From Candidatus Aphodovivens excrementavium (GTDB lineage Bacteria; Actinomycetota; Coriobacteriia; Coriobacteriales; Eggerthellaceae), in the NCBI GenBank assembly GCA_018715935.1, contig DVKR01000031.1, positions 1 through 49,291 of the forward strand: a DNA stretch of 49,291 nucleotides, read 5' to 3'. Positions 38,951 through 45,826 of this stretch are shown here, piece after piece (positions within the stretch are counted from its first letter, which is position 1; the number at the start of each line of letters is the position of its first letter). The notes below the pieces were generated by a model that did not search any database, was not told where the DNA came from, and worked only from the letters and a program-made list of their open reading frames with translations. The translations under genes were made by a program, and so were the position numbers.

Positions 38951-39748
38951 ATGTTGCTTGCCATCGATGTGGGGAACACGCAAACGGTCATTGGCGTATA
39001 TGAAGGTCAAACGCTGCAGCATATGTGGCGCATTGCCACGAACAAGCAGCACACGTCCGACGAGCTGCGGTTGAAGCTTATGCCCTTGCTGAGCTCGGAG
39101 GGCATCGATTCGTCCGATCTAGCGGGCGCGGTTTTAGCGTCGGTGGTGCCGCAGCTGTCGCATGGGTGGCAGTCTGCGTTGCGTAAGCTGGTGGGCGCCG
39201 AGCCTTTGGTGTGCACGGCGGACTCCGCCGGGGAGGAGCTGTTTCCCACCGCCTATGCCAACCCCTCAGAGATTGGCGCTGACCGTGTGGCAGACGCCGT
39301 TGCCGCACGTTCGCTCTATGGGCAGCCGGTGGTAGTGGTAGATTTTGGTACGGCGACCAACATCGAGGTTATCGATCGGGAAGGTGTATTCGTGGGGGGC
39401 GTGATTGCCCCCGGCGTGGAGACTTCCGCCGCAGCGCTGTTTTCGCACGCCAACCGCCTGTCGGCTATCGAGCTGGAAGACCCCCATACGGCCATCGGGG
39501 GAAACACGGCACAGGCTATGCAGGCAGGCATCGTGTATGGCGAAGCGGAACGCGTGGATGGCTTGGTTCAGCGTATTTTCGACCAACTTGGGTATAAAGC
39601 TCCGGTTGTGGCAACGGGCGGCTTGGCTGCGCGCGTAGCTCCGCTTTCGCGCACGATCACGATGGTGAACAAAGAGCTTACTCTTGAAGGTCTTCGGCGT
39701 TTTTTTGAAGAAAGAGGGGCTTGCGAGCATGGAGGATGTAGAGACTAA
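38951..39748 (+). CDS. coaX: Type III pantothenate kinase
   Basis: First step of coenzyme A synthesis, ATP-dependent phosphorylation of pantothenate; the CoaX type needs a monovalent cation and is insensitive to CoA. ASKHA-fold motifs: MLLAIDVGNTQTVIGVY (phosphate 1, residues 1-17), GADRVADAVAAR with the catalytic Asp, VVDFGTATNIEVID (phosphate 2, about 134-147) and ATGGLAARVAP (about 222-232). Length 265 is standard. The stop overlaps the start of the next gene by 20 bases. GTTGAGAAG before the ATG is a weak ribosome site. Confidence 0.95.
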   Translation: MLLAIDVGNTQTVIGVYEGQTLQHMWRIATNKQHTSDELRLKLMPLLSSEGIDSSDLAGAVLASVVPQLSHGWQSALRKLVGAEPLVCTADSAGEELFPTAYANPSEIGADRVADAVAARSLYGQPVVVVDFGTATNIEVIDREGVFVGGVIAPGVETSAAALFSHANRLSAIELEDPHTAIGGNTAQAMQAGIVYGEAERVDGLVQRIFDQLGYKAPVVATGGLAARVAPLSRTITMVNKELTLEGLRRFFEERGACEHGGCRD

Positions 39749-40142
39749 ATCCGAACCGGAACGAGGGTTTTTCCCTCTTCATTTTGACGGCGACAACAGC
39801 TACCCCGAATGCGAGCAGTGCGACAGATGCTGCCACGTCAACGTGTTGGCGATGACGCACGAAGAAGTGCAGAGAATTCGCGACTACGCAGCTGCGCACG
39901 ACATCCATCCCGTCGACCGCAACAAGGAATGTTGCTGCTTTGAGGATCCCGTGCATGGCGGTTGCATGGTGTGGGAGGCACGCGCCCAGGTGTGCCGACT
40001 CTACAATTGCCATGTTCCGCGGCTGGAAATCCTGCGACAAAATCCCAATATCCACGTGCCCGACGATCTCCCTTGGGTCGATATGCACGAGTGCTTCATC
40101 AATAACAACGAATTCGACCCGCGCTGGGCAACGGTTTCGTAG
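39729..40142 (+). CDS. YkgJ-like zinc/iron-chelating Cys-rich protein
   Basis: A 137-residue cytoplasmic protein with a Cys cluster: CEQCDRCCH (about residues 28-36), ECCCF (about 68-72), GGCMVW, CRLYNCHVPR, and a terminal HECFINNNEFDP. This pattern is that of the CxxCxxCC (YkgJ) family, annotated as zinc- or iron-chelating; biochemical role unknown. The start at 39729 lies inside coaX, giving a 20-base overlap and probable translational coupling. An alternative in-frame ATG at 39684 would place 15 residues of coaX overlap at the N-terminus with no ribosome site. Confidence 0.8.
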   Translation: MEDVETKSEPERGFFPLHFDGDNSYPECEQCDRCCHVNVLAMTHEEVQRIRDYAAAHDIHPVDRNKECCCFEDPVHGGCMVWEARAQVCRLYNCHVPRLEILRQNPNIHVPDDLPWVDMHECFINNNEFDPRWATVS

Positions 40143-40246: not shown

Positions 40247-40339
40247 GTATTTTCACCCCTCGGCATGACTGTGGAAACGCGTGGGCGTCAACCCGGGTAC
40301 AATGTGACCCAAGACGTTTCCAGGGGAAGGAGCCCATCC

Positions 40340-42028
40340 ATGCTGAGCGATATCGAAATTGCGCAATCGATCACGCCGGAGCCCATTGCCGGCATTGCCA
40401 AGAAGGCTGGCATCGACGACAAGTATCTCGAATGCTACGGCAACTACAAGGCGAAGGTCGACTACAACTTGCTGCGCAACGAGAAGCATGAGCCGGGCAA
40501 GCTGATCTTGGTTACCGCCATCAACCCCACGCCAGCCGGCGAGGGAAAAACCACCACGACGGTTGGGTTGGCCGACGCTCTTTCCAAGCGCGGCAAAAAC
40601 GTCATGGTTGCCTTGCGCGAGCCCTCGCTCGGCCCGGTGTTTGGCATCAAGGGCGGCGCAGCAGGCGGCGGGTATGCCCAGGTAGTTCCTATGGAAGACA
40701 TCAACCTGCATTTCACGGGCGACTTTCATGCCATCGGCGCTGCCAACAACCTGCTGGCAGCGCTCCTGGATGCCCATATCCACAACGGCAACGAGCTTGG
40801 CATCGACGTGCGCAAGATAACGTGGAAGCGCGTGGTTGACATGAACGATCGCCAACTGCGCTTTATCGTCGACGGCTTGGGCGGCAAGGCGAACGGGGTC
40901 CCGCGCGAAGACGGCTTCGACATCACCGTTGCGTCCGAAGTGATGGCGATTTTCTGTCTGGCAACCTCCATCACCGACCTCAAAGAGCGTTTGGGACGTA
41001 TTGTGGTTGGCTATACCTTCGACGACAAGCCCGTTACGGCTCACGACCTGCATGCCGAAGGCGCTATGACTGCGCTTCTGAAAGACGCGCTCAAGCCCAA
41101 CCTGGTGCAGACGCTTGAGGGCACGCCGGCGTTCGTGCACGGTGGGCCGTTCGCTAACATCGCTCACGGCTGCAATTCCATCATGGCTACCCGCATGGCG
41201 ATGGCCTTGGGCGACTATTGCGTTACCGAGGCGGGATTCGGTGCCGACCTCGGCGCCGAGAAGTTCCTCGACATCAAGTGCCGTCTTGCGGGGCTTGCGC
41301 CCGATGCCGTAGTGGTGGTTGCTACCGTGCGTGCGTTGAAGAATCACGGCGGCGTTGCCAAGGCGGATCTCAACGAAGAGAACTTGGAGGCTTTGGAGGC
41401 GGGTCTTCCGAACTTGCTGCAGCATGTGGAAAACATCACCAAGGTCTACAACCTTCCGTGCGTGGTGGCCATTAACGAGTTCCCCACTGACACGAAGGCG
41501 GAAGTTGAGCTGGTCGAGCGCAAGTGCAAGGAGCTGGGCGTTAACGTTGCCTTGTCTCAGGTGTGGGCGAAGGGCGGCGACGGCGGCCTGGAGCTGGCCG
41601 ACGAAGTGGTGCGCCTGTGCGCAGAGGGCGACAGCGAGGGTCGCTGCGCCAACACGTTCCAGTTCGCCTACGAAGACGACCTTTCCTTGGCAGAGAAGAT
41701 CGAGGCTATCGCGAAGCGCGTGTATCATGCCGATGGCGTGAACTTCGAGCCGAGCGCGCGTAAGGAGCTTGCCAAGCTGGAGAGCTTGGGGTTCGGCGGC
41801 ATGCCCGTATGCATGGCGAAGACCCAGTACTCCTTCTCGGACGATCAGACCAAGCTGGGCGCTCCGCGCGACTTCACCGTCACGGTGCGCCAGGTGAAGG
41901 TGAGTGCCGGCGCCGGGTTCGTGGTGGCGCTTACGGGCTCCATCATGACGATGCCCGGTTTGGGCAAAGCGCCTGCCGCGTTTAAGATCGACGTTGACGA
42001 AACGGGCAAGATCAGCGGCTTGTTCTAA
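40340..42028 (+). CDS. fhs: Formate-tetrahydrofolate ligase
   Basis: ATP-dependent entry of formate into the C1-tetrahydrofolate pool (methyl branch of the Wood-Ljungdahl route, or purine/serine supply). The 562-residue protein has P-loop [16 protein letters not shown] (about 55-70), [21 protein letters not shown] (shown in part: [14 protein letters not shown]) and [11 protein letters not shown], as in known enzymes. ATG 40340 follows GGGAAGGAG. TACAAT at 40298-40303 may be the -10 box. Followed by a long hairpin, then fchA-like and folD genes. Confidence 0.96.
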
Positions 42029-42051: not shown

Positions 42052-42115
42052 GAGGGAGGCCCTGACGGCTCGCTTTCGCGCGACCCTGCGAAGTCGGAGC
42101 GCCAGGGCCTCTCTC
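42052..42115 (+). terminator. Long hairpin between fhs and the fchA-like gene
   Basis: A 13-bp outer stem (42052-42064 with 42103-42115, one G-U pair) and an inner TTCGC/GCGAA stem, about 64 bases in total. No T-run follows, so full termination is uncertain; it could attenuate read-through or protect the fhs mRNA, giving different levels of Fhs and the two downstream proteins. Confidence 0.6.
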
Positions 42116-42158
42116 GCTGACTTTGACTCGAATCGCGAATTGCACGGAGCTGTTGAAG

Positions 42159-42776
42159 ATGAACCTCGACACCGAATTTCTTGAGAAGCTTGCTTCTGCC
42201 GATCCCGCGCCGGGCGGTGGCGGGGCAAGCGCCTATGCAGGAGCGCTTGCCGCCGCATTGGCCGCCATGGTTGGCAACCTGGCAGTTGGAAAACAGAAAT
42301 ACGCCGACGAGCAGGAGGGGATCCTTGCGTCGCTCGAGCGCTTGGCGCAACTGAGAGCCCGCCTGCTTGATTTGGTGTCCGCCGACGCTGGCGCCTACCT
42401 GCCGCTCAATCGCGCCTACCGCATGCCGCGCGGCACCGCCAGCGAGGCGGCGGCGCGCCAGGAAGCAATTCAGGAGGCGCTAGGTCCGGCATGCGATGTG
42501 CCGCTTGAGATCATGGAGTCGTGTTCCGACATCATCGACGAGGCCGATTACCTGGCACGCCACGGCAGCAAGCTTGCCGTGTCGGACGCCGGGGCGGCGG
42601 CAGTGCTCGCGCGCGGCGCGCTGGTCTCTGCGGCCATGAATATATTCCTAAACGTCGACAGCATGACTGATCCTGAGCGGGCTTTGCGCTACCGTGCCCG
42701 CGTAAACGAGATGATGATCAGTGCCCAGATGCGATCCGACATCGTTGCATCGCTGGTCATGGGCTATTTGCAATAG
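42159..42776 (+). CDS. Cyclodeaminase/cyclohydrolase family protein (FchA-like)
   Basis: A 205-residue helical protein of the formiminotransferase-cyclodeaminase C-terminal family. The N-terminal PAPGGGGASAYAGALAAALAAMV (shown in part: DPAPGGGGASAYAGALAAAL) is the family signature. In clostridia the same-size stand-alone protein beside fhs and folD is FchA, methenyl-tetrahydrofolate cyclohydrolase. The neighbours here are fhs and folD, so cyclohydrolase is the likely activity rather than histidine-derived cyclodeaminase. ATG 42159 (MNLDTEF) is preferred over a TTG at 42123. It ends 8 bases before folD. Confidence 0.85.
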   Translation: MNLDTEFLEKLASADPAPGGGGASAYAGALAAALAAMVGNLAVGKQKYADEQEGILASLERLAQLRARLLDLVSADAGAYLPLNRAYRMPRGTASEAAARQEAIQEALGPACDVPLEIMESCSDIIDEADYLARHGSKLAVSDAGAAAVLARGALVSAAMNIFLNVDSMTDPERALRYRARVNEMMISAQMRSDIVASLVMGYLQ

Positions 42777-42784
42777 GGGCGGGT

Positions 42785-43654
42785 ATGGCAAAACTGCTAA
42801 AGGGAAAACCGGTTGCGGATGCGATCATTGCCGATGCGCGCGCCCGCGCCGACGCGCTGCGTGCTCGCGGCGTTGCCCCGACGCTCGCAATCGTGCGTGT
42901 TGGGAGCGATCCGGGGGACTTGTCCTATGAGCGAACCCTTCTCAAGCGCACTTCAGATGCGGGCGTTGGCGTGCAGACGGTTTCTCTTGATGCCGATGTT
43001 TCGCAAGACGTGCTGGGGGTTGTCATGCGCACGTTGTCCGATGACCCCGCCGTGCATGGATGCCTGATGTTTCGTCCGCTGCCGGCGCATCTTGACGATG
43101 TCACAGCATGCGAGCTGATCGCGCCCGCCAAGGATGTTGACGGCGTAACGCGTGCGTCGCTTGCGTATGTGGTGTCGGGCACAGGCGAGGGGTTTGCCCC
43201 TTCGACGGCGGAAGCGTGTCTGCGCCTTCTCAGGCACTACGATGTCCCGATCTCTGGGGCGCGGGTGGCGGTGCTGGGACGCAGCCTCGTGGTGGGAAGG
43301 CCTTTGGCCTTGCTGCTCACCGCATGCGACGCGACGGTGACGTTGTGCCACTCGCGCACCAAAGATACTGCTTCAATCTGTCGCGACGCCGACATTGTCG
43401 TGTGCGCCACCGGCAGTGCGCGGGCATTCGGGCGTGAGTATTTCCGTGATGGGCAGACGGTGCTGGACGTGGGAATCAACTTCACCGACGAGGGCGAAAT
43501 GTGCGGGGACGTGGATGAATCTGCACTTGACGGCGTCGCGTGCGCGCTCACGCCTGTTCCGGGCGGCATCGGGTCGGTTACCACGGCGGTGACGCTCGAC
43601 CACGTGGTTGTCGCGGCAGAGCGCGCTGCCCATTCCGTGCGTGGGCGCGCTTAG
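42785..43654 (+). CDS. folD: FolD-family methylene-tetrahydrofolate dehydrogenase lacking cyclohydrolase residues
   Basis: A 289-residue FolD fold: substrate-site Y48 (LSYERTLLKR), PAKDVDGVT (about 114-122), nucleotide-binding VLGRSLVVGRPLALLL (about 162-177), and PVPGGIGSVTTA (about 260-271). Compared with E. coli FolD (Y50, K54, Q98, D121) the lysine four residues after the Tyr is L52 here, and the motif usually written LVQLPLP reads LMFRPLP (F96 in place of Gln). The known cyclohydrolase Lys and Gln are therefore missing, while the NAD(P) site is intact. I infer a monofunctional dehydrogenase served by the FchA-like neighbour. It sits 8 bases after that gene. Confidence 0.92.
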   Translation: MAKLLKGKPVADAIIADARARADALRARGVAPTLAIVRVGSDPGDLSYERTLLKRTSDAGVGVQTVSLDADVSQDVLGVVMRTLSDDPAVHGCLMFRPLPAHLDDVTACELIAPAKDVDGVTRASLAYVVSGTGEGFAPSTAEACLRLLRHYDVPISGARVAVLGRSLVVGRPLALLLTACDATVTLCHSRTKDTASICRDADIVVCATGSARAFGREYFRDGQTVLDVGINFTDEGEMCGDVDESALDGVACALTPVPGGIGSVTTAVTLDHVVVAAERAAHSVRGRA

Positions 43655-43855: not shown

Positions 43856-43912
43856 GCCTTCTTGTGCTTTTGGGCGCGTTGCGAGAAAGTTTGTCGTTTT
43901 CGGAGGTTTCGT

Positions 43913-45826
43913 ATGGGACTGACGCGTACGCAAAAGGTTATGGTGGTCGTATTCTTGGCGGGTACGGTGTTCGCGGTGCTCAACCAGACGCTGCTGTCGC
44001 CGGCGCTTCCCGCGATCATGGCAGATACGGGCGTTGACGCTACCACGGTGCAGTGGCTTACGTCAGGCTATTCGCTCACCGAGGCAGTCGTCATTCCCTT
44101 TGCCGCATACTTTATCGGCCGCTTTTCCACACGTCAGCTATTTCTGGGCGGTATGACGCTCTTTACGCTGGGTAGCCTCTGTGCTGCGCTGGCGCCGTCG
44201 TTCCCCGTGTTGCTTTTGGGTCGCGTGCTCCAGGCGGTGGGCACTGGTGCGGTCATGCCGATGGTGTTTACCGTCATCCTGCTGATCTTCCCGCGCGAGA
44301 AGCGCGGCAGTGCAATGGGCATCATCAGCCTCGTTATCGGCTTCGCGCCTGCTATTGGTCCTTCGCTCTCGGGTCTGCTTGTTGACTCGGTGGGTTGGCG
44401 CGCGCTGTTCATCATCGTGACGGTGCTCTCGGCGCTCATCGTTGTGGTGGGGTTTGCCGTGCTCAAAAACTACGGCGATTTCAAGCGCGTAACGTTCGAC
44501 CCGCCATCGGTGGCGCTTACCACCATTGGCCTGGTGTGCTTGCTCTACGGCCTGTCGACGTTCTCGTCCAAGAGCAACTTGCCGCTCACTATCGGGCTGA
44601 TCGTGGTGGGTGCGGCGCTGATGGCTGTCTATGTCCGCCGCCAGCTTAAGCTGGAAACACCCATGCTGCAGGTGGGCATCCTGCGTACGCGTCGCTATGC
44701 CACGGCGGTTATCGTGATCGTGATCGTCCAGGCGGCGCTTATGGGCACCGGTGTCATCATTCCGCTGTTCATCCAGGGGACGCTGGGCAATTCCGCCACC
44801 GTGTCAGGCGTGGCGATGCTGCCGGGCGCGGTGCTCGGTGCACTCATGTCGTTTATTGCGGGGCGCCTGTTCGACCGCTACGGCGTGCGCAAGCTGGCAA
44901 TTCCGGGCGGCGTGCTGACGCTGGCGGGCGCGTTCGGCATGGCGGCGCTTGGGATTGATGCCAGCATTCTGTCGGTTGCGGCGGTCTACACTGTGATGGT
45001 GGTGGGCCTGCAGACCATGATGACGCCGCTGAACACCTGGGGCGTCAACTCGTTGGACAACAGCGTCATCCAGCATGCGCAGGGCGTGTCCAATACGCTC
45101 AACCAGATTGCGGGTGCGTTCGGCACGGCGCTTTTGGTGTCCATATCGGCGCTGTCTCCTATGCTCGCGCCTCAGGCAGGAGCGCTTGAGCAGCAATACC
45201 TTGGCCAGCACCTGGCATTTTGCGTAATGACGGCGCTTTTGGTAGTGGCGTTTGTGGTGGTGTGCGCGTTGGTGAGCGATAAGCCCGACAGAAAGGCGTC
45301 GAAGGATCGCGCGGGCGCCGCACGCACTGCGTCTGGGGTTGCCGCCGACCCCCTTACGGTTGGGTATGCGATGGATCGAAGCCCGGTAAGCGTGCCGTCT
45401 GACGCCCCCATGCGCGAGGTGGTGCGTGTGATGGCGGAGTCGGACACCAGTGGTGTGCCGGTGGTGGACTCCTCTGGGATTCTGGTGGGCTTTGTGTCCG
45501 ATGGAGACGTGGCCTCGTATCTGGGCAAAAACGAGCTGTCGTTTTTCGACCCTAGTCTCACGCTGGTGCGTTTCTCCGACGAAGGGGATTTTGTTGACCG
45601 CTTGGACGACCTGCTCGACCTGGGCGTGATGAACGTTGCCACACGCCGTGTGGTGACGGTGGAGGCAGGCGACTCCATCGACGATGCTTGTCACGTACTG
45701 GCAGAGAAGCGCATCAAAAAAGTGCCGGTGGTCCAGGACGGCAAGCTGGTGGGCACGCTGTCGCGCCGCAACATCATCCACGCGATTGCCGACGCGCGCG
45801 GTCTTGGGGCGGCTGAGCGAGCGTAG
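43913..45826 (+). CDS. DHA2-type MFS exporter fused to tandem CBS domains
   Basis: A 637-residue protein. Residues about 1-470 form a 14-span drug:H+ antiporter-2 transporter: LNQTLLSPALPAIMADTGVD after the first span, LTSGYSLTEAVVIP, the RxxxG motif (GRVLQAVGTGAVMP) and PAIGPSLSGLLVD. Residues about 483-637 are two CBS domains (AMDRSPVSVPSDAPM, VPVVDSSGILVGFVSDGDV; then VVTVEAGDSIDDA, KKVPVVQDGKLVGTLSRRNII). CBS pairs bind adenine nucleotides and gate channels or enzymes; attached to an MFS exporter they are unusual and suggest control by cell energy or a nucleotide. CGGAGG precedes ATG 43913. Confidence 0.9.
   Translation: MGLTRTQKVMVVVFLAGTVFAVLNQTLLSPALPAIMADTGVDATTVQWLTSGYSLTEAVVIPFAAYFIGRFSTRQLFLGGMTLFTLGSLCAALAPSFPVLLLGRVLQAVGTGAVMPMVFTVILLIFPREKRGSAMGIISLVIGFAPAIGPSLSGLLVDSVGWRALFIIVTVLSALIVVVGFAVLKNYGDFKRVTFDPPSVALTTIGLVCLLYGLSTFSSKSNLPLTIGLIVVGAALMAVYVRRQLKLETPMLQVGILRTRRYATAVIVIVIVQAALMGTGVIIPLFIQGTLGNSATVSGVAMLPGAVLGALMSFIAGRLFDRYGVRKLAIPGGVLTLAGAFGMAALGIDASILSVAAVYTVMVVGLQTMMTPLNTWGVNSLDNSVIQHAQGVSNTLNQIAGAFGTALLVSISALSPMLAPQAGALEQQYLGQHLAFCVMTALLVVAFVVVCALVSDKPDRKASKDRAGAARTASGVAADPLTVGYAMDRSPVSVPSDAPMREVVRVMAESDTSGVPVVDSSGILVGFVSDGDVASYLGKNELSFFDPSLTLVRFSDEGDFVDRLDDLLDLGVMNVATRRVVTVEAGDSIDDACHVLAEKRIKKVPVVQDGKLVGTLSRRNIIHAIADARGLGAAERA

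Follow-up and report, generated by a model that had tools for sequence, protein, structure and literature searches.

In Clostridium perfringens, FolD reportedly works as a dehydrogenase only, and both FolD and FchA are said to be needed to replace the FolD of Escherichia coli. FolD, FchA and Fhs of this organism are separate proteins, as published by Aluri et al. 2016 (Microbiology 162:145, doi 10.1099/mic.0.000209; cited in PMC7219735). In E. coli FolD, the lysine (K54) serves as general acid/base and the glutamine (Q98) positions that lysine; the role of the Asp has also been treated (PMC3338484). The E. coli mutant K54N presents no detectable cyclohydrolase activity and about 19% of the dehydrogenase activity, and Q98H about 1% and 8%, respectively (PMC5688156). 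Another described relative is yeast Mtd1, which is NAD-dependent and, by report, dehydrogenase-only.

The locus considered here lies in a stretch of 49,291 nucleotides (the window) of contig DVKR01000031.1 from Candidatus Aphodovivens excrementavium (Coriobacteriia, Eggerthellaceae), whose close relatives include Collinsella (same order) and Candidatus Aveggerthella. As in C. perfringens, FolD, FchA and Fhs are encoded as separate proteins, although the two organisms belong to different phyla. The window is a further case of the C. perfringens-type combination of FolD, FchA and Fhs, and the arrangement itself is not new. Very probably it holds a three-gene one-carbon cluster with a dehydrogenase-only FolD, in which FchA performs the cyclohydrolase step. 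The features are the following:

40265-42028, + strand: fhs, formate--tetrahydrofolate ligase (587 aa; PF01268, 907.7 bits, well over its cut-off; model NF010030 of NCBIfam, 937 bits where 652 are required)
42052-42115, + strand: GC-rich hairpin between fhs and fchA, with one arm at 42052-42079 and the other at 42088-42115, not followed by a T-run
42159-42776, + strand: fchA-like, 205 aa with the FTCD_C fold, a putative methenyl-THF cyclohydrolase (PF04961, 197.4 bits)
42785-43654, + strand: folD, 289 aa, predicted to act on methylene-THF as a dehydrogenase only (PF00763 and PF02882; L52/F96)
42938-42940, + strand: codon of L52, aligned with E. coli FolD K54, the cyclohydrolase lysine
43070-43072, + strand: codon of F96, aligned with E. 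coli FolD Q98
43139-43141, + strand: codon of D119, aligned with E. coli FolD D121, the pterin-binding Asp, which is kept

The fchA stop codon and the folD start are separated by 8 bp, and fhs and fchA by 130 bp. The ATG of the fchA-like gene is preceded by GGAG, and an alternative TTG start is open at 42123. The hairpin has 28-nt arms that are 75% complementary, and the z-score of the entire fhs-fchA gap is -1.7; this hairpin might separate or stabilise the fhs and fchA transcripts. A search of the whole window placed no Rfam RNA family in the gap, and the promoter/terminator scan gave no signal exceeding that of shuffled sequences. The genes may be cotranscribed, less certainly so for fhs given the 130 bp gap and the hairpin. 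Immediately upstream of fhs (39684-40142) lies the gene of a small CxxCxxCC (PF03692) protein, and immediately downstream of folD (43862-45826) that of an MFS transporter with two C-terminal CBS domains.

Taking E. coli K-12 FolD (from NC_000913.3) as the reference, an ungapped alignment pairs Y50 with Y48 of the window FolD, K54 with L52, K56 with K54, Q98 with F96 and D121 with D119. The sequence-only reading had matched the E. coli Lys and Gln with L52 and F96, with the NAD(P) site and the Asp kept, and the alignment agrees on both counts (Y48, D119, G165-R166-S167 and S190 are present). Since the stretch from Y48 to K54 aligns without gaps, the window's own K54 is not the catalytic lysine: it pairs with E. 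coli K56, and the objection that the reading had itself named, K54 at the catalytic position, falls away. The protein belongs to the FolD family, with 92.4 bits for PF00763 (cut-off 32.8) and 162.9 bits for PF02882 (cut-off 27), and lacks both residues of a bifunctional FolD (Lys K54 and Gln Q98). Among the best 25 of 30 NCBIfam models, the highest bifunctional FolD score reaches 246 bits, where 421 would be required.

The AF2 model of the window FolD (pLDDT 94.4) aligns along its whole length with canonical FolDs, and the structural alignment called for earlier yielded a Z of 38.0 over 286 residues for E. coli FolD (1b0a) and of 29.7 over 271 residues for Mtd1 (1edz). The E. coli enzyme thus has the same fold, with the Tyr and Asp kept, yet differs at K54/Q98 (L52/F96), in L40R, V51E, L99R, P265S and M266V, and in overall sequence (about 30% identity). 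Mtd1 also shares the fold, but with 20% identity it stands farther off than the bacterial FolDs. Regarding the cofactor, R166 and S190 match the residues usual in canonical FolDs (of 71, 70 have the Arg and 69 the Ser), which indicates NADP(H) as the probable cofactor of the window enzyme; the tie of these positions to NADP is known from human MTHFD1. No second FolD, and hence no canonical copy, was found elsewhere in the genome, which has a size of 2.08 Mb and a completeness of about 99%. The published E. coli mutants support a predicted loss of cyclohydrolase activity in the window FolD.

The neighbouring protein has a clear FTCD_C domain (PF04961, 197.4 bits against a cut-off of 24.5) and is the only FTCD_C protein of the genome. 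Its sole NCBIfam match is the FchA model NF045657, with 173.5 bits and a cut-off of 275; this shortfall counts against the FchA assignment and is the reason why we call the protein FchA-like, the claim being that it works like FchA. Its top PDB match is the methenyltetrahydrofolate cyclohydrolase 7vg4 (E 2.8e-34), ahead of FTCD, and it shares the FTCD_C fold and the PGGGG and SD motifs with 7vg4/7vg5. We take these structures to be from Methylobacterium extorquens, where the cyclohydrolase is presumably partnered with MtdA and not with a FolD.

Under the favoured reading, Fhs would form 10-formyl-THF from formate, THF and ATP, FchA would interconvert 10-formyl-THF and 5,10-methenyl-THF, and FolD, with NADP(H) as its probable cofactor, would only interconvert methenyl-THF and methylene-THF; these activities, and the direction of flux, are predictions. 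The second activity of FolD would have gone with the Lys/Gln pair (the dyad), its step being performed by the neighbouring FchA. This is what had been proposed from the letters of the DNA, namely a dehydrogenase-only FolD with FchA supplying the cyclohydrolase and a route of three proteins from formate to methylene-THF. The proposal is supported, at the level of prediction, by the E. coli mutants, by the near-perfect co-occurrence of altered dyads with FTCD_C, by the conserved fhs-fchA-folD order and by the absence of a formiminotransferase, with which the FTCD_C protein would have its other known function.

Within the class, 296 genomes were surveyed, with residues read in more than 110 of them and elsewhere the PF00763 score alone. 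FTCD_C is present in 193 genomes, all of the window's order, and missing from 103, 97 of which have a FolD. The 193 carry the low-scoring PF00763 type of FolD and the 97 present canonical scores, one FolD near the score border being cut by a contig end. Where residues were read, there were no exceptions to the match between dyad and FTCD_C. The gene fchA precedes folD on the same strand, mostly less than 100 bp away, and the fhs-fchA-folD order is conserved. In most bacteria both functions reside in one bifunctional protein; the split of FolD and FchA over two neighbouring genes, a known arrangement, is the rule in the window's order. In the family of Collinsella, some species have fhs followed directly by a canonical folD and others fhs, fchA and a folD lacking K and Q; two genomes of the window's own family (G102 and G249, loci L159-L162) have two fchA-folD pairs each, all without K and Q.

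The genus g44, taken as Collinsella, includes 23 species with FTCD_C and a low-scoring FolD and 14 without FTCD_C in which K and Q are present. Here the fchA-folD pair and the single canonical folD take each other's place, in some species next to the same fhs gene, a pattern that looks like gene replacement. The sampled Collinsella-type loci (L107-L122 and L123-L126) hold either fhs with a canonical folD or fchA with a K/Q-less folD, never both.

Beyond the class, in the phylum of Pseudobutyrivibrio, 141 of 239 genomes have FTCD_C. The highest-scoring FolDs read there are all K-lost, with FTCD_C in every genome, either adjacent or elsewhere, and K and Q are present in 64 of 65 sampled FTCD_C-negative genomes. 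Another clade is found among clostridial FolDs (among loci L208-L219, and L295), in which the lysine is kept and Q98 is changed to E; in those among L208-L219, fchA lies directly downstream of folD, in reverse gene order. The Q-to-E locus L295 (genome G537) is the single exception, and given that its contig ends exactly where fchA would come next, it may be just the assembly that lacks the gene. The pooled loci come from overlapping sets, and since several share a genome or stem from close relatives, the counts are not independent; they comprise 163 with an altered dyad and FTCD_C, 1 with an altered dyad without it, 116 canonical without FTCD_C and 13 canonical with it. To the question whether loss of Lys/Gln always goes with fchA, the answer is hence FTCD_C in the genomes of 163 of 164 dyad-altered FolDs. 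Due to the 13 loci, the rule is one-way: an altered dyad implies FTCD_C, but the converse does not hold. An open-access search found no statement of a dyad-fchA rule for Coriobacteriia in the literature.

A FolD tree built with the dyad columns removed separates canonical FolDs from a K-lost clade, which spans Coriobacteriia and Bacillota, and from a Q-to-E clade, which includes a single L/L member. Grouping all K-lost sequences is weakly rejected (p-AU 0.044), owing to that single L/L member, and the altered dyad would have arisen about two to three times. With only one to three changes on the tree, a sign test on independent losses is powerless. The correlation is strong, but it rests on few events, mainly two clades, with the replacement in Collinsella as the exception.

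At 151 K-lost loci, the Lys site is never K and mostly A, L, I or V, and the Gln site is F, L or M in all 151. As the fixed state of a large clade, L52/F96 is not a matter of chance. Other positions change along with the dyad (E. coli numbering): L40 to R in 95%, V51 to E in 91% and L99 to R in 81% of the set, while P265/M266 are mostly S/V. The window's R38, E49 and R97 correspond to L40, V51 and L99. In the structure of E. coli Q98H, Y50 packs against V38, L40, L96 and H98 (PMC5688156), which places at least L40 beside the active site. The co-changed positions suggest remodelling rather than simple decay. A more daring reading, which we consider rather doubtful, is that of a distinct FolD class whose site face was rebuilt for FchA (R38, E49, R97 and a GSVTT-like stretch for GPMT), for example for the passing of methenyl-THF, with the gene sets of Collinsella interchanging.

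The remodelled residues might also mean that FolD is still bifunctional, with R38, E49 and R97 standing in as base or acid in the cyclohydrolase step, and these residues, fixed or frequent across the K-lost clade, are indeed seldom or never found in canonical FolDs. However, the FTCD_C gene found in every K-lost-clade genome checked would be needless if FolD had retained the activity, one K-lost subclade has A or S at the R97 position, and E. coli K54N is inactive as a cyclohydrolase (PMC5688156), which leaves a bifunctional enzyme highly improbable. Two points do weigh against the split of activities: the cyclohydrolase reaction can proceed spontaneously (PMC5688156), such that absent catalysis in FolD could be tolerated, and the co-occurrence is concentrated in two clades, which implies few independent evolutionary events.

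Given that FTCD has FTCD_C as its cyclodeaminase domain and that the FchA score is under its cut-off, the gene could instead encode a formimino-THF cyclodeaminase of histidine or purine breakdown, lying next to folD incidentally. Yet no formiminotransferase (PF07837, FTCD_N) was found in the genome, the Thermotoga maritima control being positive, on which ground a histidine-degradation enzyme was rejected; the top PDB match is a cyclohydrolase ranking above FTCD, the coupling with fhs and folD is conserved, and FTCD_C is tied to dyad loss. We therefore hold a cyclodeaminase very unlikely. Acetogen gene clusters also hold fhs, fchA and folD together (PMC12003927), as would be the case if the cluster were the methyl branch of the Wood-Ljungdahl pathway; but neither acetyl-CoA synthase (CdhC, PF03598) nor the MetF/MTHFR family (PF02219) has a match in the genome, about 99% complete, and acetogenesis was rejected as extremely unlikely. 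The genome does have two Formyl_trans_N (formyltransferase) genes. Since formiminotransferase, acetyl-CoA synthase and MetF are all missing, the three-gene route would serve C1 supply, most likely balancing C1 units for purine and formyl-Met-tRNA synthesis.

For annotation, NCBI family models call such FolDs bifunctional or miss them, and a check of two residues and of the presence of fchA would seem sufficient to put this right for a whole gut-bacterial order and many Bacillota, which is relevant to metabolic models. It is predicted that fchA is needed in organisms with a dyad-altered FolD. In E. coli FolD, K54 anchors carolacton (PMC5688156), and a dyad-altered FolD is predicted to resist this compound. 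A natural experiment is at hand in Collinsella, where the switch occurs at species level.
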